Virus record (IMG/VR): IMGVR_UViG_3300050011_000275
Span: 1 to 28,468 of that record
Length of the DNA stretch: 28,468 bases
Origin: a virus
Reading direction: 5' to 3' (one strand)
Positions 5,124 to 24,390 of this stretch are shown here, piece by piece. A model generated the notes under the pieces. That model had not been told where the DNA came from, made no database searches, and saw only the letters and a list, made by a program, of their open reading frames with translations. Both the position numbers and the translations under genes were made by a program. How positions within the stretch are numbered: position 1 is the stretch's first letter; every line of letters begins with the position of its first letter.

Positions 5124-5546
5124 ATGACTACGACCACCGCCTATGACGGCAGAAACTTCCTGATCAAGATCAGCCCGGACGGCGGCTCGACCTATTCCGC
5201 CGTCGGTGGTTGCCAATCCACCGACGTGACGGTGAACAACAAGCCCGTCGACATCACCAACGTGCTGTCGCTCGGACAGGCGGAGTGGCTCGCCGACGGC
5301 GGCGAGCAATCGGTCAGTGTGGCATTCAGCGGCGTGGTGGCCAACGACGCGCAGCTCAAGGTCATGCAGACCCAGGCATTCGCGCGCACCTCGGTGCTGT
5401 ACAAGATGCTGTTCGGCACCGCTGGCGTCATCGCCGGCAGCTTCGTCATGACCAACTTCAAGATCAGCGGCAAATACAACGACGCGCAGGGCTTTTCCGG
5501 TCAGCTCGACAGCAACGGCCCGCTGACGCTGACCCACGACACCTGA
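5124..5546 (+). CDS. Major tail tube protein, copy 1
   Basis: 140 residues from ATG 5124 with a good GGAGG site upstream. MTTTTAYDGRNFLIKIS, then GGCQSTDVTVNNKPVDITN, then GKYNDAQGFSGQLDSNGPLTLT, is the TP901-1/HK97-type tail tube family. It forms stacked hexameric rings around the tape measure. A second gene (5677-6096) is about 85 percent identical in protein. The two share a 97-base stretch with no difference at all (5221-5317 against 5774-5870), which points to recent duplication or gene conversion. Changes cluster in the N-terminal strand and in residues about 92-103. A GC-rich repeat separates the copies. Confidence 0.88.
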   Translation: MTTTTAYDGRNFLIKISPDGGSTYSAVGGCQSTDVTVNNKPVDITNVLSLGQAEWLADGGEQSVSVAFSGVVANDAQLKVMQTQAFARTSVLYKMLFGTAGVIAGSFVMTNFKISGKYNDAQGFSGQLDSNGPLTLTHDT

Positions 5547-5548
5547 TC

Positions 5549-5655
5549 CCCCTTCGCCCCATCCCCCTACGCCCCATCCCCCTTCGCCCAAGACGGGCTT
5601 CGGGCGACTAGCGGAGGGGCTTCGGGCGACTAGCGGCGGGGCTTCGGCCGACGGA
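5549..5655. repeat. GC-rich intergenic repeat, copy 1
   Basis: C-rich runs (CCCCTTCGCCCCATCC repeated with variation) are followed by hairpin-forming GCCCAAGACGGGCTTCGGGC and two further GGGGCTTCGG(G/C)CGAC units. TCGCCC at 5584-5589 pairs with GGGCGA at 5602-5607. The same unit recurs at about 6099-6152 and 7577-7650. It looks like a dispersed bacterial intergenic element brought into the phage and could act as an mRNA-stabilising or attenuating hairpin between tail genes. No coding signal on either strand. Confidence 0.7.
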
Positions 5656-5676
5656 CCTCCAGCGGAGAACAGCGAC

Positions 5677-6096
5677 ATGACCACCACCACAGCCTATGAT
5701 GGCAGGACCTTCCTGCTCAAGATGAGCGCCGACGGCGGCTCGACTTACACCGTAGTGGGCGGCTGCCAGTCCTCCGACGTGACGGTGAACAACAAGCCCG
5801 TCGACATCACCAACGTGCTGTCGCTCGGACAGGCGGAGTGGCTCGCCGACGGCGGCGAGCAATCGGTCAGCGTCGCGTTCAGCGGCGTGGTGGCGACCGA
5901 CGCGCAGCTCAAGCTGTTGCAGACCCAGGCTTTCGCGCGGACATCCGTGCAATACCGGCTGGCGTTCGGCGCCACCGGCATCATCGCCGCCAACTTCGTC
6001 ATGACCAACTTCAAGCTCAGCGGGAAATACAATGACGCGCAGGGCTTTTCGGGCCAGCTCGACAGTAACGGCCCGCTGACCCTGACCGCGGACTGA
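5677..6096 (+). CDS. Major tail tube protein, copy 2
   Basis: 139 residues from ATG 5677, preceded by GGAGAA. It is a close paralogue of the gene at 5124: the same MTTTTAYDGR start, the same GGCQSSDVTVNNKPVDITN core and the same GFSGQLDSNGPLTLT end. About 20 substitutions separate the two. Differences in the loop at residues 92-103 (QYRLAFGATGIIAANF here, LYKMLFGTAGVIAGSF in copy 1) are the main candidates for functional divergence, for example a different outward face. Whether both are built into one tail, or one replaces the other, cannot be told from sequence. Confidence 0.88.
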   Translation: MTTTTAYDGRTFLLKMSADGGSTYTVVGGCQSSDVTVNNKPVDITNVLSLGQAEWLADGGEQSVSVAFSGVVATDAQLKLLQTQAFARTSVQYRLAFGATGIIAANFVMTNFKLSGKYNDAQGFSGQLDSNGPLTLTAD

Positions 6097-6098
6097 GT

Positions 6099-6152
6099 CC
6101 CCCTGCGCCCCAAGCGGGGCTTCGGGCGACAGGCGGCTTCGGGGGGGGGGCA
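6099..6152. repeat. GC-rich intergenic repeat, copy 2 (short)
   Basis: A shorter form of the repeat at 5549: CCCCCTGCGCCCCAAGCGGGGCTT, then CGGGCGACAGGCGG and a run of ten G. GCCCC and GGGGC form a short stem. It lies between tail tube copy 2 and the tail-assembly chaperone gene. The homopolymeric G run is a likely mutation hotspot. Confidence 0.6.
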
Positions 6153-6194: not shown

Positions 6195-6551
6195 GTGGCG
6201 AGCCAGACACGCAAGGAAATCGACGCCGTGCTCGACGGCCGGACCTACACGGTGCGGCCCACGCTGGAACGCGTCGCCGAGATCGAGGACCGGTTCGGCT
6301 CGGTGCTGTCGGTGCTGCGCAAGATGCAGGCCAACGACATCGGCGTCGGCGTGCTGTGCGGGATTTTCGGTATCATGCTGCGCGGCGCAAAGGACAGCGC
6401 CGGTGTCGCGGCGCCCCCGTACTTCGAGGTGGTGAAGGCCGCGTTCGACGCCGGCGCGTATGCGACGTGCTCCGGCCCGGTGAGCGCTTACCTGGCCGCG
6501 GCGATCGCGGCCGACGATCCGGCGACCGCGGGCGCAACCGCGGGAAACTGA
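6195..6551 (+). CDS. Tail assembly chaperone, short form (GTA gp11-like)
   Basis: 118 residues from GTG 6195, with AAAGGAAG about five bases upstream. EIDAVLDGRTYTVRPTLERVAEIEDRFGSVLSVLRKM matches the small chaperones found next to the tape measure in alphaproteobacterial phages and gene transfer agents. The middle contains GVGVLCGIFGIMLRGAK and the end is an Ala-rich linker ATAGATAGN before TGA 6549-6551. By analogy with lambda gpG it should coat the tape measure and recruit tail tube subunits. The last sense codons form a slippery heptamer, so ribosomes can shift into the next frame and make an extended product. Confidence 0.8.
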   Translation: MASQTRKEIDAVLDGRTYTVRPTLERVAEIEDRFGSVLSVLRKMQANDIGVGVLCGIFGIMLRGAKDSAGVAAPPYFEVVKAAFDAGAYATCSGPVSAYLAAAIAADDPATAGATAGN

Positions 6552-6583
6552 CCGGCGACCCGCCGCCGCTGCCCTATCGCCGG
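6542..6583 (+). promoter_or_regulatory. Programmed -1 ribosomal frameshift signal (slippery site plus hairpin)
   Basis: G GGA AAC at 6542-6548 is a canonical X XXY YYZ heptamer in exactly the right phase of the chaperone frame. It is immediately followed by the in-frame TGA at 6549-6551. A perfect 7-bp inverted repeat follows (CCGGCGA 6552-6558, TCGCCGG 6577-6583), able to form a stimulatory hairpin. Slippage by -1 reads GGG AAA CTG ACC and enters the open frame that ends at 6793. This is the arrangement known for lambda gpG/gpGT and many other tail-assembly genes. Confidence 0.8.
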
Positions 6584-6793
6584 CTGATGCAGCAGGCGCT
6601 GGGCTGGCTGCGCTGGTCGCCTGATCAGTTCTGGGGATCGACATTGGCCGAGCTCACCGCCGCCGTGGCGGGCTACCTGGAGACCCGCGGCGTCGATCCG
6701 CAGGCCGGCGAGAAAGAGCGCGCGATGCAGGGCGACCTGCTCGCCATGCTGGAGGCGGAGATGGAGAAGGAGGGTGCGGCGGCGATCCGTTAG
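6548..6793 (+). CDS. Tail assembly chaperone, frameshift extension (GTA-type TAC)
   Basis: The -1 frame entered at the slippery site encodes about 81 residues: LTGDPPPLPYRRLMQQ, then ALGWLRWSPDQFWGSTLAELTAAVAGY, then a charged helix to AAAIR and TAG 6791-6793. The GWLRWSPDQFW element is characteristic of the second, short tail chaperone of alphaproteobacterial phages and gene transfer agents. There is no convincing ribosome site or start codon at its beginning; the first ATG (6586) would remove the conserved N-terminus. Production as a fusion with the upstream protein is therefore most likely. The stop codon lies inside the 8-bp target duplication of cassette A, so insertion of that cassette left this gene intact. 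Confidence 0.75.
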   Translation: MTGDPPPLPYRRLMQQALGWLRWSPDQFWGSTLAELTAAVAGYLETRGVDPQAGEKERAMQGDLLAMLEAEMEKEGAAAIR

Positions 6794-6797
6794 GGAG

Positions 6798-7566
6798 GGG
6801 AATTACATACTTGACTACCTCAGGCCCCAGGTCGGTTGATCTATGAGAACCGAGCACATCGGCAGCGCCACGCTCTACCTCGCCGATTGCCGCGAAATCC
6901 TGCCGACGCTATCGGGCGTGGACGCGGTGGTGACTGATCCGCCTTATGGCATCAACCATTCCTCTGCACATGGCGCGTCCTGGCAGAACACCAGGATTGC
7001 TGGCGACAACGACACCACGTTGCGGGACGCAGTGCTGCAGGGCTTTGAGAATGTCGCTTCATTCGGGACATGGAAAACGCCCCCGATTGCGGACGCGGCC
7101 GGATGCTTGGTGTTCGATAAGGGGCCTGCGTTCGGCATGGGCGATCTGTCGTTCCCGTGGAAGCCATCCTTCGAACTGATCTATATCCGAGGCCACGCAT
7201 GGGCCGGGAAGCGCGACGAGGGTGTGTTGCGCGGCCACGTGCAGGTTTCGTGGAAAACGCAGTTTAAGGGGCTGGGTGACCGCGAAGCGCGCAGCCATCC
7301 GCATCAAAAACCGTTCTCGCTGTGCGAGGCGCTGCTGCTGAAGCTGCCGCCGGATTTCACGATCCTTGACCCCTTCATGGGCAGCGGCACGACTGGCGTT
7401 GCGTGCGCTCGGCTGCGGCGGCGGTTCATCGGTATCGAATGCCACGAGCCTTACTTCGACATTGCCTGCCGCCGCATTGAGCAAGCCCAGCGGCAGGGGA
7501 CCTGTTCCGCGATCAGATGGCCGATGCGGCCCAATGAGCCGCCCGGTAGTCAAGTATGTAATTCCC
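6798..7566 (+). mobile_element. Cassette A: IS1595-like non-autonomous mobile cassette carrying a DNA methyltransferase
   Basis: 769 bp bounded by perfect 22-bp terminal inverted repeats (6798-6819 and 7545-7566; outer end GGGAATTACATACTTGAC). It is flanked by an exact 8-bp direct repeat TTAGGGAG (6790-6797 and 7567-7574). Eight-base duplications are the norm for IS1595-family transposition. There is no transposase inside; the single passenger is a DNA methyltransferase co-oriented with the late operon. The repeat pair differs at one position from that of cassette C and at two from that of D, yet left and right ends of A agree completely. It entered just behind the tail chaperone gene, with its stop codon inside the duplicated target. 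Confidence 0.85.
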
Positions 7567-7691
7567 TTAGGGAGCGCGGTCCCCCTTCGCCCCATCCCCC
7601 CTACGCCCAAGACGGGCTTCGGGCGACCAGTGTTGGGGCTTCTGGCGACAAGCGGCGATCCGTTAGTCGCCGGGGATGCCGGTCGGCGTGA
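6843..7691 (+). CDS. DNA adenine-type methyltransferase (beta-class), frameshifted at its 3' end
   Basis: Starts at ATG 6843, 23 bases inside the left repeat of cassette A. DPPYG at residues 32-36 is the catalytic motif IV. HPHQKP at 152-157 and LDPFMGSGTTG at 175-185 (SAM-binding motif I) follow in that order, which defines the beta-class N6-adenine/N4-cytosine enzymes. The spacer between the motifs, about 140 residues, would recognise the target. The annotated frame runs through the right repeat to TGA 7689-7691 and ends in meaningless sequence. If one G were restored in the GGGG run at 7496-7499, the frame would instead end GDLFRDQMADAAQ at TGA 7535-7537, seven bases before the repeat and typical of this family. 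Catalytic motifs are upstream of the shift, so activity may survive. Likely role: modifying phage DNA against restriction. Confidence 0.8.
   Translation: MRTEHIGSATLYLADCREILPTLSGVDAVVTDPPYGINHSSAHGASWQNTRIAGDNDTTLRDAVLQGFENVASFGTWKTPPIADAAGCLVFDKGPAFGMGDLSFPWKPSFELIYIRGHAWAGKRDEGVLRGHVQVSWKTQFKGLGDREARSHPHQKPFSLCEALLLKLPPDFTILDPFMGSGTTGVACARLRRRFIGIECHEPYFDIACRRIEQAQRQGTCSAIRWPMRPNEPPGSQVCNSLRERGPPSPHPPYAQDGLRATSVGASGDKRRSVSRRGCRSA
7575..7666. repeat. GC-rich intergenic repeat, copy 3, flanked by 15-bp direct repeat
   Basis: CCCCCTTCGCCCCATCC, then CGCCCAAGACGGGCTTCGGG and GGGGCTTCTGGCGAC repeat the element at 5549. GCGGCGATCCGTTAG at 7652-7666 is an exact copy of 6779-6793, the last codons of the tail chaperone extension. 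Before cassette A inserted, the GC-rich element was therefore flanked by a 15-bp direct repeat. That suggests duplication or insertion at the same junction used by the lipoprotein gene that follows on the other strand. Confidence 0.65.
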
Positions 7692-8223
7692 CGCCGGTCT
7701 GGTTGTAGGCACCCATGCAGACCCGATATTCTGACGAGCCCTCGGACGGCCCGTCGAGAAACCCGTAGGGGCCATGCGAAAAGGCCATTGACACGAAATA
7801 GGCCTGTCGCCGGCACAGATGGTCCGCCTGGGCATCGTCCGCGGCAAAGGACGACGGTTTGTCGGCCAGGGCTTGCCAGAACCCGCACTCCTTGATCCCG
7901 TTGAACGCGGAGATCAGCGCGGCATCGCGCGACATCTTCGCCGCCCCGGCTGTTGCGTTCGGCCCCGGAACCGAATGATCGAACGCGACGATCTTCGCGA
8001 CCAGGCCGTCGGCGTCGTGATACGGCGAATGGTTTTCCGCGGCGGCCAGCGCCTTCGCGCGTGCGGCCGTGATGAGGCGCCCGCGGGCATCGTCGGCGAC
8101 AGGCGGACATTTTTCGGCGGCGGTGCTCTCGGTCGCGTCGCGCCGGGTCTGGCGCCAGTCGTACGGCGGCTGCTGGGCGCATGCGGCAAGCGCGAGCGTC
8201 GCAAGCAATACGAGTCGGAGCAT
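7663..8223 (-). CDS. Predicted lipoprotein, unknown function (moron on opposite strand)
   Basis: 186 residues, start ATG at 8223 reading leftward, with AGAGG upstream. MLRLVLLATLALAAC is a complete lipoprotein signal peptide with lipobox LAAC (Cys at 15); an exported, membrane-anchored product is expected. The mature part is rich in Asp, Ala and charged residues and contains Cys in ECGFWQALADKPSS, DHLCRRQAYFVSMAFSHG and YRVCMGAYNQTG, which could form disulphides in the periplasm. No family recognised. It is the only gene on this strand within the late operon, between tail chaperone and tape measure. That is the signature of an independently expressed lysogenic-conversion gene, for instance one blocking superinfection, though that role is inference. 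Its stop lies in the 15-bp repeat shared with the chaperone end. Confidence 0.7.
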   Translation of the reverse strand: MLRLVLLATLALAACAQQPPYDWRQTRRDATESTAAEKCPPVADDARGRLITAARAKALAAAENHSPYHDADGLVAKIVAFDHSVPGPNATAGAAKMSRDAALISAFNGIKECGFWQALADKPSSFAADDAQADHLCRRQAYFVSMAFSHGPYGFLDGPSEGSSEYRVCMGAYNQTGVTPTGIPGD

Positions 8224-21603: not shown

Positions 21604-21753
21604 TCAGAAGGGAACGTCGGCGTCCAGGTCGCCTGGAACCGACGGCCTGGCGGCTAGCTGCGCATCCCGTGCGGCGCGACGGGCGTTGCAGACCGCGACC
21701 ATGTCGACGCCTGCATCGATTGCCGCGCGGATGATCGCGGCGTGGTGCCCCAA
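21604..21753 (-). pseudogene. 3' remnant of a - strand gene cut by the IS1595-like element
   Basis: Reading leftward from the edge of the IS end, 49 residues run to TGA at 21604-21606: an amphipathic helix AAIIRAAIDAGVDMVAVCNARRAARDAQLAARP and an acidic end GDLDADVPF. No start codon or ribosome site is present before the IS boundary, so this is the tail of a gene whose front was displaced. It could be the missing end of the small gene at 24052-24390, now separated by about 2.3 kb of mobile DNA, or of a gene that was partly deleted. The DVPF end recalls acidic tails of SSB-like proteins, but that alone is not evidence of function. Confidence 0.5.
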
Positions 21754-21767
21754 TTGTATACTTGACA
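21748..21767 (+). repeat. Left terminal repeat of the IS1595-like element
   Basis: AATTGTATACTTGAC (21752-21766) matches the inner part of the cassette repeats (AATTATATACTTGAC) at 14 of 15 positions. The outer bases are CCC where the cassettes have GGG, so the precise tip is uncertain. No matching right end exists, because the transposase gene is cut off before it. Confidence 0.6.
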
Positions 21768-21790
21768 AACGATCCGTTTTGGCGTAGAAA
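21762..21790 (+). promoter_or_regulatory. Predicted sigma70-type promoter of the transposase gene
   Basis: TTGACA (21762-21767) and TAGAAA (21785-21790) are separated by exactly 17 bases and sit 30 bases before the transposase ATG. The -35 box is formed by the inner end of the terminal repeat. The first bases are therefore shared between transposase binding and transcription. Confidence 0.55.
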
Positions 21791-21819
21791 GTAGTCCTAC
21801 CGCAAGTCAGGACCGTGTC

Positions 21820-22608
21820 ATGCCCGTTAACCTCACCGATCCGATCTTCCACAGTGAAGACGCCGCCCGCGAGCACTTCGAGACGATCCGCTGGCCGTTC
21901 GGCCCAGTCTGTCCGCATTGCGGCACGATCGACCAAGCCACCCGACTCGAAGGCAAAGCACACCGTCCGGGTGTCTGGACCTGCCGCGCCTGCGACCAGC
22001 AGTTCACCGTGATGGTCGGCAGCGTCATGGAGTCCAGCCATCTGCCACTGACGAAGTGGGCGCTGGCGTTTTTCCTGATGGCGGGCAGCAAGAAAGGCGT
22101 CTCTGCGCACCAACTGCATCGGTCGTTGAAGATCACCTACAAAACGGCGTGGTTTTTAGCGCACCGCGTCCGCGAGGCGATGACCGACCCCAAGCCGGCC
22201 CCGCTCGGCGGCGAGGGCAAGGTAATCGAGGCCGACGAAGCGTACCACGGCAAGCGCGAGACGCCCGCCCAGCGCAGCCGCAACGCCCGCACGACATTCA
22301 CGAAGGGCGGTAAGTCCGGCGGCGCGCAGAAGCGTCCGATCGTCGCCTTGGTTGAGCGCGGCGGCGAGGTTCGCGCCTTCCACATGCCGACCGTCAACGC
22401 CAACAACATCCGCGAGAAGCTGGTCACGCACGCCAGTCGCAAGAGCCGCCTGCATACCGACGAAAGCAACCTCTACACCACGATGGGCGAGGAATTCGCC
22501 AAGCACGAGACGGTCAACCATGGCAAAAAGGAATATGCCCGTGGCGACGTGACAACTAATTCCGTTGAAGGCTTCTTCGGCATCGTTCTTTGGGAATTAT
22601 ATACTTGA
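21820..22608 (+). CDS. IS1595-family transposase, C-terminally truncated
   Basis: 262 codons from ATG 21820. The N-terminal zinc ribbon VCPHCGTIDQ with WTCRACDQQFTVMVGSVMESS (Cys pairs about 18 residues apart), then LPLTKWALAFFLMAGSKKGVSAHQLHR, define the IS1595 (ISXO2-like) group. The DDE-type core shows IEADEAYHGK, LHTDESNLYTTMG and NSVEGFFGI, so the three catalytic positions are still present. The frame should continue with about 60-70 residues (usually FKRGM and an H/Y-rich helix). Instead it runs after about residue 256 into the left repeat of cassette D and stops at TGA 22606-22608 with WELYT. The protein is probably inactive, or at best a DNA-binding fragment that could interfere with an intact transposase. 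Confidence 0.8.
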   Translation: MPVNLTDPIFHSEDAAREHFETIRWPFGPVCPHCGTIDQATRLEGKAHRPGVWTCRACDQQFTVMVGSVMESSHLPLTKWALAFFLMAGSKKGVSAHQLHRSLKITYKTAWFLAHRVREAMTDPKPAPLGGEGKVIEADEAYHGKRETPAQRSRNARTTFTKGGKSGGAQKRPIVALVERGGEVRAFHMPTVNANNIREKLVTHASRKSRLHTDESNLYTTMGEEFAKHETVNHGKKEYARGDVTTNSVEGFFGIVLWELYT

Positions 22609-22641
22609 ATAGGGAATTATATACTTGACTACCACGGCGCA

Positions 22642-22857
22642 TCAGGCCCCGTCTTTCGGCCAGCCCATGACCTTGTGCTTGAGAAAATCCCCGATCCGCG
22701 CAGCGACGGCGCAGTGCTCCTTATTCACACCATAAGTGGTACAGTGCTCGCCATGTGGCGCCGGCTCGTTGCCGACTTTGCGCGCAATTATGACGACCTG
22801 ATCGTAACCGTAATCTTTTGCGATGCGCTCGGCGGCACTGATCGGGATGCGCTTCAC
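22642..22857 (-). CDS. Small conserved phage protein (cassette C, second gene)
   Basis: 71 residues, start at 22857 overlapping the stop of the preceding cassette gene (ATGA). MKRIPISAAERIAKDYGYDQVVIIARKVG, then HGEHCTTYGVNKEHCAVAARIGDFLKHKVMGW resembles a small hypothetical protein I associate with proteobacterial phages. Cys/His positions (GEHC, KEHC) could bind a metal. It has no membrane segment. Function unknown; its presence on a mobile cassette argues that it is useful to a phage independently of its neighbours. Confidence 0.7.
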   Translation of the reverse strand: MKRIPISAAERIAKDYGYDQVVIIARKVGNEPAPHGEHCTTYGVNKEHCAVAARIGDFLKHKVMGWPKDGA

Positions 22858-23051
22858 TTCGTTTCTCCTGCCGCCGAGCGCCGTTCAATAAGCGCCTTGA
22901 TCTCCGGAGCTTCGTCCGCGGTCATCATGAAATCGCGATCTGGATAGCCGGGAACGCGAACAATGACAGTCACCTTCACGCCCGGTTTGAAGTAGCTGCT
23001 GATGGCATCCATGTGATCGGCAACAAGTTCCTGCACATCGCGCAGTGTCAT
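22854..23051 (-). CDS. Small acidic protein, unknown (cassette C, first gene)
   Basis: 65 residues from ATG at 23051, with GGAGGTG nine bases upstream, right at the edge of the terminal repeat. MTLRDVQELVADHMDAISSYFKPGVKVTVIVRVPGYPDRDFMMTADEAPEIKAL suggests an alpha-beta-beta-alpha mini-fold. No family recognised. Overlaps the start of the next gene by four bases, so the pair form a two-gene operon moved as a unit. Confidence 0.65.
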   Translation of the reverse strand: MTLRDVQELVADHMDAISSYFKPGVKVTVIVRVPGYPDRDFMMTADEAPEIKALIERRSAAGETK

Positions 23052-23099
23052 CGGTCATCACCTCCGGTAGTCAAGTATATAATTCCCCTTGAATACCTG

Positions 23100-24026
23100 T
23101 CACGGCGCCCGGTCGCCTTCCCAGCCGATCGGCATCCGAAAGCCGCTTGCGTTGCGGTGCCCACCACCGCCGTAGCCCTTGGCGATCGCGCTCACGTCCA
23201 GCCCGTCATCGGTTGACCGTAGGCTGAATACGCGGCCCTCGGGTGTGTCCCAGTAGCAGACGGCGAACCGTTCGCCCTTCGCCATCAGGCCCCCGGCATC
23301 GCTGGTCATTGTGTAGGGAATGTTCGCGCAGGGGACCGCATAGCCACCGATGATCATGGTGCGCTGCGTCACCTTCACCAGTTCGGCCACATCCTTGTGG
23401 TGCTTCCGTTCGATCGCTCCACCCATGTCGGCCGCCTGCTGAACGCCCATGTGGTCATGCAGCAGCGCATTGAGGAAATCCCAATTACGGAACTCATATT
23501 CGTAGCTGAATACCAGCGCGTTTACCTCGCGGGAGAGTGGCAGCTTGAACCGCCACAGGTCCCTGTCGCCCACATAATCGACGAGGTTCGGGCGTGCCTG
23601 CCCAGGAAAGAAGAAGTCCCACGCGAGTTGCGCGCCGCTTCGGTCCATATCGAACACCGAACGCACCGGCCACTCGACGGCCTGTTCCCATTTCGCGCGC
23701 CAGAGGCTGGGGTCGTATGCGCCCTCCTGAATGTGCCCCTCTGGCACTGGCAAACCAGACAGGTCATCCGCTGCGGTTTTGTGATGATCAAGGATCAGGA
23801 TCGTGTTCGCCTGCCGCGTGTCGCCAGATTGCAGCATGGACTCCAGCACTGGCCGCTTGTAGCTGAAATCGACGAAGATCACGTCGCGGCCAGCCGTGTC
23901 TGGCGGCGCGCTCTGATACACGCCAGGGAAAAAATCGACCTCGCCGTCGAGAGCCTTGTGCACGACCCATGCGGCTGTGAAGCCATCGGCGCAGTTGCCG
24001 TGGTAGATGCAAAGAGTTTTGCTCAT
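23100..24026 (-). CDS. DHH/DHHA1-family phosphoesterase (cassette D)
   Basis: 308 residues, start ATG at 24026 with AAGGGAG upstream. HGNCADG at 9-15 supplies the first metal-binding His/Asp, FVDFSY at 51-56 the next Asp, and DHH at 80-82 the family motif. VDYVGDRDLW continues the core, and near the C-terminus GGGGHRNASGF (about 286-296) is the DHHA1 substrate-binding loop. These Mn-dependent enzymes cleave phosphodiester bonds in nanoRNA, pAp, or cyclic and linear dinucleotides (NrnA, GdpP and RecJ relatives). With no PAS or membrane domain it resembles stand-alone forms. Candidate roles are recycling of short oligonucleotides or removal of nucleotide second messengers used in host defence; the latter is hypothesis. 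All main catalytic residues appear intact. Confidence 0.8.
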   Translation of the reverse strand: MSKTLCIYHGNCADGFTAAWVVHKALDGEVDFFPGVYQSAPPDTAGRDVIFVDFSYKRPVLESMLQSGDTRQANTILILDHHKTAADDLSGLPVPEGHIQEGAYDPSLWRAKWEQAVEWPVRSVFDMDRSGAQLAWDFFFPGQARPNLVDYVGDRDLWRFKLPLSREVNALVFSYEYEFRNWDFLNALLHDHMGVQQAADMGGAIERKHHKDVAELVKVTQRTMIIGGYAVPCANIPYTMTSDAGGLMAKGERFAVCYWDTPEGRVFSLRSTDDGLDVSAIAKGYGGGGHRNASGFRMPIGWEGDRAP

Positions 24027-24051
24027 CGGTCGCTCCCTTCAGGTGAGGTAT

Positions 24052-24390
24052 TCAAGTATATAATTCCCTGTTCTTTCCCTTGCTTGCCGGCGCCGCGGCC
24101 ACGCGCTCGGCGGCCGCGCCGGCCGGCAGCGGCATGGCTTTCGTTGTTTCGACCGGCACTTCCTGGAACCGGCCGCGCACGGCGCGAATCACGGAAAGCT
24201 TCGTGCCGGGGTCGAAGATGGCGACCTGGCACAGCGGCGGGAGCACTGACGCGACATGCGCCGCAAGCCGCTCCGCCGCCTCGGTCGAAAGGCGTCGGGG
24301 CGATCGGACAATGAGCAGGTCGCCGCGCTTGAGCCGCAGCCTGCTGATCTCGATCTTTTTGGGAAATTCAACACCGCCGTTTTTGCTCAT
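24052..24390 (-). CDS. Unknown protein downstream of integrase, 3' end replaced by cassette D repeat
   Basis: 112 codons from ATG at 24390, which overlaps the integrase stop (ATGA). MSKNGGVEFPKKIEISRLRLKRGDLLIVRSPRRLSTEAAERLAAHV, then QVAIFDPGTKLSVIRAVRGRFQEVPVETTKAM is a small alpha/beta protein, with GDLLIV and a helix that recur in phage proteins of unknown function. The last residues RELYT and the stop codon come from the terminal repeat of cassette D, so the native C-terminus has been lost or replaced. The Ala-rich end before it may already be a disordered tail, so the core could remain functional. Confidence 0.6.
   Translation of the reverse strand: MSKNGGVEFPKKIEISRLRLKRGDLLIVRSPRRLSTEAAERLAAHVASVLPPLCQVAIFDPGTKLSVIRAVRGRFQEVPVETTKAMPLPAGAAAERVAAAPASKGKNRELYT

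Follow-up and report, generated by a model that had tools for sequence, protein, structure and literature searches.

How can a DNA methyltransferase gene come to lie in the late operon of a phage, directly behind the gene for the tail assembly chaperone, without breaking the operon? This question is raised by the viral record IMGVR_UViG_3300050011_000275, of which a stretch of 28,468 nucleotides, here called the window, was analyzed. The methyltransferase gene is located in a 769-bp element, cassette A (window 6798-7566), which lies between two copies of an 8-bp target duplication TTAGGGAG matching at 8/8 positions and ends in perfect 22-bp terminal inverted repeats (TIRs; 22/22) with the sequence GGGAATTACATACTTGACTACC (Table 1). 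An initial annotation, made from the letters alone, had reported these repeats, and its coordinates proved exact. With at most three mismatches allowed, the TIR pattern occurs six times in the window and in none of 100 shuffles; besides the two copies of cassette A, the TIR is present four more times, thereby forming the cassettes B and C.

The zero frame of the chaperone gene ends with TGA (6549-6551), which is directly preceded by G GGA AAC, a canonical -1 slippery heptamer; no unusual stem was detected downstream of this site (z 0.2). As had been claimed, the duplicated target contains the TAG (6791-6793) of the frameshift-extended chaperone. Of the further claim that the insertion occurred exactly at this stop codon without damage, the latter part held, as the left copy of TTAGGGAG keeps the stop; the position had to be refined, since the TAG lies inside the left copy and the insertion point is therefore 4 nt downstream of it. 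Thus, the stop is present with or without cassette A. These reading frames support the view that transposition into the stop region would have left the frameshift-extended chaperone intact.

Table 1. Positions of the chaperone gene, the cassettes and the truncated insertion sequence in the window
Feature	Position	Strand	Basis or remark
Tail assembly chaperone, zero frame (GTA-gp10 / Phage_TAC_11)	6195-6551	+	Pfam Phage_TAC_11/GTA-gp10 4.7e-9
Slippery heptamer GGGAAAC, phase right for -1 frameshifting	6542-6548	+	sequence
-1 frame extension of chaperone, ends at TAG	6548-6793	+	reading frames
Left target duplication TTAGGGAG	6790-6797	+	contains chaperone stop
Left TIR, cassette A	6798-6819	+	inward TTG at 6811-6813
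N6/N4 DNA methyltransferase, cargo of cassette A	6843-7536	+	PF01555 1.1e-19; PHROG 67 5.5e-42
Right TIR, cassette A	7545-7566	-	22/22 vs left TIR
Right target duplication TTAGGGAG	7567-7574	+	sequence comparison
Truncated IS1595-family insertion sequence	21749-22608	+	PF12762 3.5e-21; NF033547 2.1e-42
Cassette C	22592-24068	-	target duplication CGTTCTTT/TGTTCTTT (7/8); B interrupts left TIR
Cassette B, two small genes	22612-23087	-	target duplication CTTGAATA; nested in left TIR of C
DHH phosphoesterase, cargo of cassette C	23103-24026	-	PHROG 4771, 1.4e-101

The TIR was searched for in IMG/VR viral contigs, bacterial genome contigs and 50,697 isolate phage records, and elements were called by pairing TIRs with an 8-bp duplication matching at 7/8 or more positions. 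Among the matches listed, IMG/VR and bacterial contigs yielded 87 complete elements of 253-4062 bp with TIR and 8-bp duplication, and at this selection threshold of at least 7/8 all but two had an 8/8 duplication. Without pre-selecting on the duplication, it matched at 8/8 in 65 of 82 facing TIR pairs. A variant TIR set provided 18 further elements. The proposal of the initial annotation that the cassette had transposed into the stop region with target duplication is thereby strengthened, as the perfect 8-bp duplications and the TIR recur in dozens of unrelated phage contigs.

Pattern matches in viral contigs comprised 26 stretches, at least 119 in a further search and 60 for the TIR variant. 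Few contigs of bacterial genomes had matches (29 stretches), and one Latescibacteria genome accounted for 24 of these; patterns and collections differ in kind, so the viral and bacterial counts are not convertible to a rate. No complete TIR match was present in the 50,697 isolate phage records, and the family therefore appears to be typical of uncultivated environmental phages, among which it is common. The Latescibacteria genome (L032-L060, OY282377) contains more than 20 copies of an IS1595-type element of approximately 1250 bp, whose TIR, with a GACAACC end, is nearly identical; in many copies the transposase is frame-broken. Matches to a 19-mer in L009, L012, L016, L021, L023, L026, L030 and L031 were rejected as chance matches to an unrelated conserved TGGAACTTCAGCATAATTATATACTTGACTACC having no TIR structure; they need to be removed when TIRs are counted.

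Outside this one IS-rich Latescibacteria genome, 59 of the elements among the matches listed are non-redundant. According to tblastn, about 24 of them contain an IS1595-type transposase, two (L136 and L070) keep transposase remnants, and the other 33 lack a transposase, A, B and C being among these. Over the aligned part, the family transposases share 56-100% identity with the L107 protein; they were recognized with Pfam and NCBIfam as IS1595-type DDE transposases with a zinc ribbon. The IS1595 family makes 8-bp target duplications, the length also found here. In L071, L123, L142, L147 and others, long ORFs were discarded because they represent frames antisense to the transposase. Transposase and methyltransferase occur together in L124, L117 and L040, which thus have the structure of passenger-carrying insertion sequences (tIS). 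Cassette A does not have this structure: tblastn detected no transposase in its interior, and its IS ends surround a passenger gene only, as in mobile insertion cassettes.

The occurrence of the same TIR on elements with and without an IS1595-type transposase argues for cassette A being a mobile insertion cassette of this family, that is, a non-autonomous transposon moved in trans with duplication of an 8-bp A+T-rich target; we assign this reading a probability of about 0.86. The IS1595-type DDE transposase of another element would act on the 22-bp TIRs around a single cargo gene, the A+T-rich target would be duplicated, and the cassette would land 4 nt behind the chaperone stop, so that the tail operon would keep its products and the cargo would be transcribed from the late operon. 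Movement in trans is suggested by the insertion of cassette B into cassette C, which indicates that transposase-less elements moved. The nesting of B in the left TIR of C shows in which order two transpositions took place in one phage.

The phage itself carries a truncated IS1595-type transposase (21820-22608), which breaks off right behind the catalytic E region, at the start of cassette C. The insertion sequence has a TIR-like left end (16/22). Truncation and an identity of only about 36% to the family transposases count against the mobile insertion cassette. The same applies to the empty site. A junction of chaperone and tape measure genes free of the cassette would read a single TTAGGGAG and then CGCGGTCC; no such site was found for cassette A, as the phage is without a close relative in the collections. 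Searches of viral contigs and isolate phages with the 553-aa protein, the tape measure protein and the chaperone gave distant hits or none. When the joined flanks of all elements were compared with all loci, no convincing empty site was obtained, only duplicate contigs.

An alternative origin of cassette A would be a decayed autonomous insertion sequence that lost its transposase, kept its passenger and is now immobile. Members carrying transposase plus methyltransferase, the short remnants in L136 and L070, and the truncated transposase of the window are in line with such decay. We nevertheless regard it as quite unlikely, because 33 non-redundant elements, A, B and C among them, have kept near-perfect TIRs and duplications without a trace of transposase, and because B was inserted into C. 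Hardly credible is the idea that the repeats are not transposon ends at all and instead flank accessory genes as sites of recombination or as regulatory repeats. It could draw on the start-associated sequences of cluster K mycobacteriophages, which are short conserved repeats at gene starts (PMC3203893), and on the inward start codon in the TIR. It is already contradicted by the inverted pairs with 8-bp duplications differing between elements, and the nested insertion as well as the IS1595 transposases inside many TIR pairs also speak against it.

The mycobacteriophage mobile elements (MPME; named in PMC3203893) are, like the cassettes, mobile elements of very small size that reside in phage genomes. 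IS1595 insertion sequences with passengers, such as tISCpe8 and MTnSag1/tISSag10, are known (PMC5704250, PMC3129680). The family described here has in common with them an IS1595-type DDE transposase with a zinc ribbon (PF12760, PF12762, NF033547), TIRs and, in some members, passengers; it differs in having a TIR conserved across phages and found mostly in viral contigs, in that more than half of the non-redundant elements lack a transposase, and in a cargo enriched in DNA-modification genes instead of drug resistance genes. Mobile insertion cassettes are known as well, for example MIC231 of IS231 in the Bacillus cereus group (PMC3129680). Like MIC231, which is thought to be activated in trans by its cognate IS, the phage cassettes carry cargo between IS ends without a transposase, whereas IS1595-type ends, location in phage genomes, diverse and mostly single-gene cargo, and placement at gene ends set them apart.

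According to PMC9600943, which refers to Leclercq and Cordaux 2011, the general view is that transposable elements are scarce in phages, and one survey reported transposases to be very rare in virulent phages (PMC8136500). The literature searched, which did not include ISfinder, described neither this TIR family in phages nor its DNA-modification cargo or its placement at gene ends; as far as this literature goes, the family in environmental phages is apparently undescribed. Its presence in dozens of uncultivated phage contigs, with many of the cassettes lacking a transposase, would give phages a concrete means of exchanging individual genes, in particular DNA-modification genes.

The cargo of cassette A is recognizable as a DNA methyltransferase by its N6_N4_Mtase domain. 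The assembled frame stays open past the end of the element, through the right TIR, to position 7691. This is due to a one-base frame change at about 7497 in the C-terminal tail; the neighboring frame closes at 7536 and resembles the normal C-terminus of methyltransferase relatives. The catalytic domain lies upstream of the change, which affects only the protein tail and may reflect a genuine mutation or a mistake in the assembly. A frame broken near its end counts against the mobile insertion cassette. Most relatives of the methyltransferase are normal phage genes that have no TIRs (82% identity in L178), which points to cargo drawn from the phage gene pool. In L179 (79% identity), a perfect TIR directly precedes the methyltransferase gene; a right TIR end was not found there. 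No methyltransferase without terminal repeats was seen at the chaperone site, the relatives being located elsewhere in other phages. The methyltransferase probably shields the phage DNA from host restriction.

Across the family, DNA-modification domains were detected in 11 of 62 non-transposase cargo frames and in 0 of 100 flanking frames (Fisher p=1.4e-5), comprising N6/N4 methyltransferases, C5 methyltransferases, Mom and an Eco57I-type enzyme. A cassette in L069 (9791-10945) carries a QueD-like (PTPS) gene and an uncharacterized 215-aa gene, which are possibly part of a deazaguanine DNA-modification pathway. On an Acidiphilium contig, a HindIII-type restriction-modification pair lies directly beside a TIR of the family (L033, 359-2377), and a NotI-like gene is found near an element in Novosphingobium (L039).

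The target duplications have a G+C content of 20%, compared to 58% in the flanks, and their positions 2 and 7 are A or T in 97%. In 16 of 48 elements, the duplication overlaps the stop of an open frame of at least 120 codons, whereas control positions with the same sequence preference and stop-triplet content gave an expectation of 3.8; this test used open frames in place of called genes. A second, small independent set showed the same direction without significance (3/13 vs 1.6 expected). Where transposase-less elements could be scored, the cargo was co-directed with the gene ending at the duplication in 9 of 10 (one-sided p 0.011). Insertions at gene ends supported by homology are located behind genes for the portal protein (L120), the small terminase (L017) and the endolysin (L167). 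In L120, the duplicated CAATAAAT is positioned on the stop/start junction between the portal gene and the next gene, leaving both the portal stop and the following ATG intact; the portal relatives L193 and L195 have no TIR at this site. Counting disruption of long open frames was uninformative in G+C-rich DNA, where 84.5% of control positions lie inside one.

The surviving members of the family would be insertions at gene ends, and a mechanistic link to stop codons is not required for this. It is probable that the transposase targets any A+T-rich 8-mer and that in packed genomes only insertions between genes survive. The strong A/T preference at positions 2 and 7 fits such selection, as do essential neighbors such as portal and small terminase genes, and the matched controls, which exclude sequence preference alone as the cause, are not decisive against it. 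Selection against gene disruption is the simplest and preferred cause of the stop enrichment, direct targeting of stops being a less probable one; such selection bears on placement alone and does not conflict with the mobile insertion cassette. Insertions of this kind would let a phage genome gain a gene while a packed operon stays intact.

The methyltransferase gene begins with ATG at 6843, 23 nt past the inner end of the left TIR, and is co-oriented with the late genes on the + strand, both as initially annotated. The third element of that description, expression by read-through from the late operon, is plausible: no sigma-70-type promoter match was found in 6500-7720, and this, the distance of 45 nt between element end and methyltransferase start, and the co-orientation are consistent with it. 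Translation could start from the gene's own ATG; alternatively, ribosomes terminating at the chaperone stop could re-initiate. The TIR consensus keeps an inward ATG or TTG at nt 14-16 in 95 of 118 copies, and five clean cargo frames start exactly there, all with ATG (Fisher p 0.007). In cassette A, a GGGAGGGG stretch is followed by a TTG-started 11-codon leader, the TGA of which overlaps the methyltransferase ATG. Such leader/ATGA overlaps were detected in A, B, C, L008, L069 and L098, in numbers comparable to a control reading frame and not clearly above it, so that coupling of cargo translation to the upstream gene via the TIR start codon is a possible mechanism, put forward as a hypothesis. 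Rather doubtful is the more far-reaching idea of a cassette system specialized for phages, in which the TIR start codon and insertion behind stops would couple a captured gene, often an anti-restriction gene, translationally into an operon, with spread by a transposase acting in trans.

Further repeats were observed around the chaperone gene. The 13-mer GGCGATCCGTTAG at its end (6781-6793) recurs downstream of cassette A (7654-7666), where it lies at the end of a minus-strand lipoprotein-like gene with its stop at about 7664; the repeated 13-mer may be left over from an earlier rearrangement. Three late genes are each followed by a G+C-rich non-coding repeat (CCCTTCGCCC...GGGCTTCGGGCGAC; 5547-5660, 6098-6140 and 7580-7657), and the major tail protein gene is present in two tandem copies (5124-5546 and 5677-6096) which are 86% identical over the first 300 nt.
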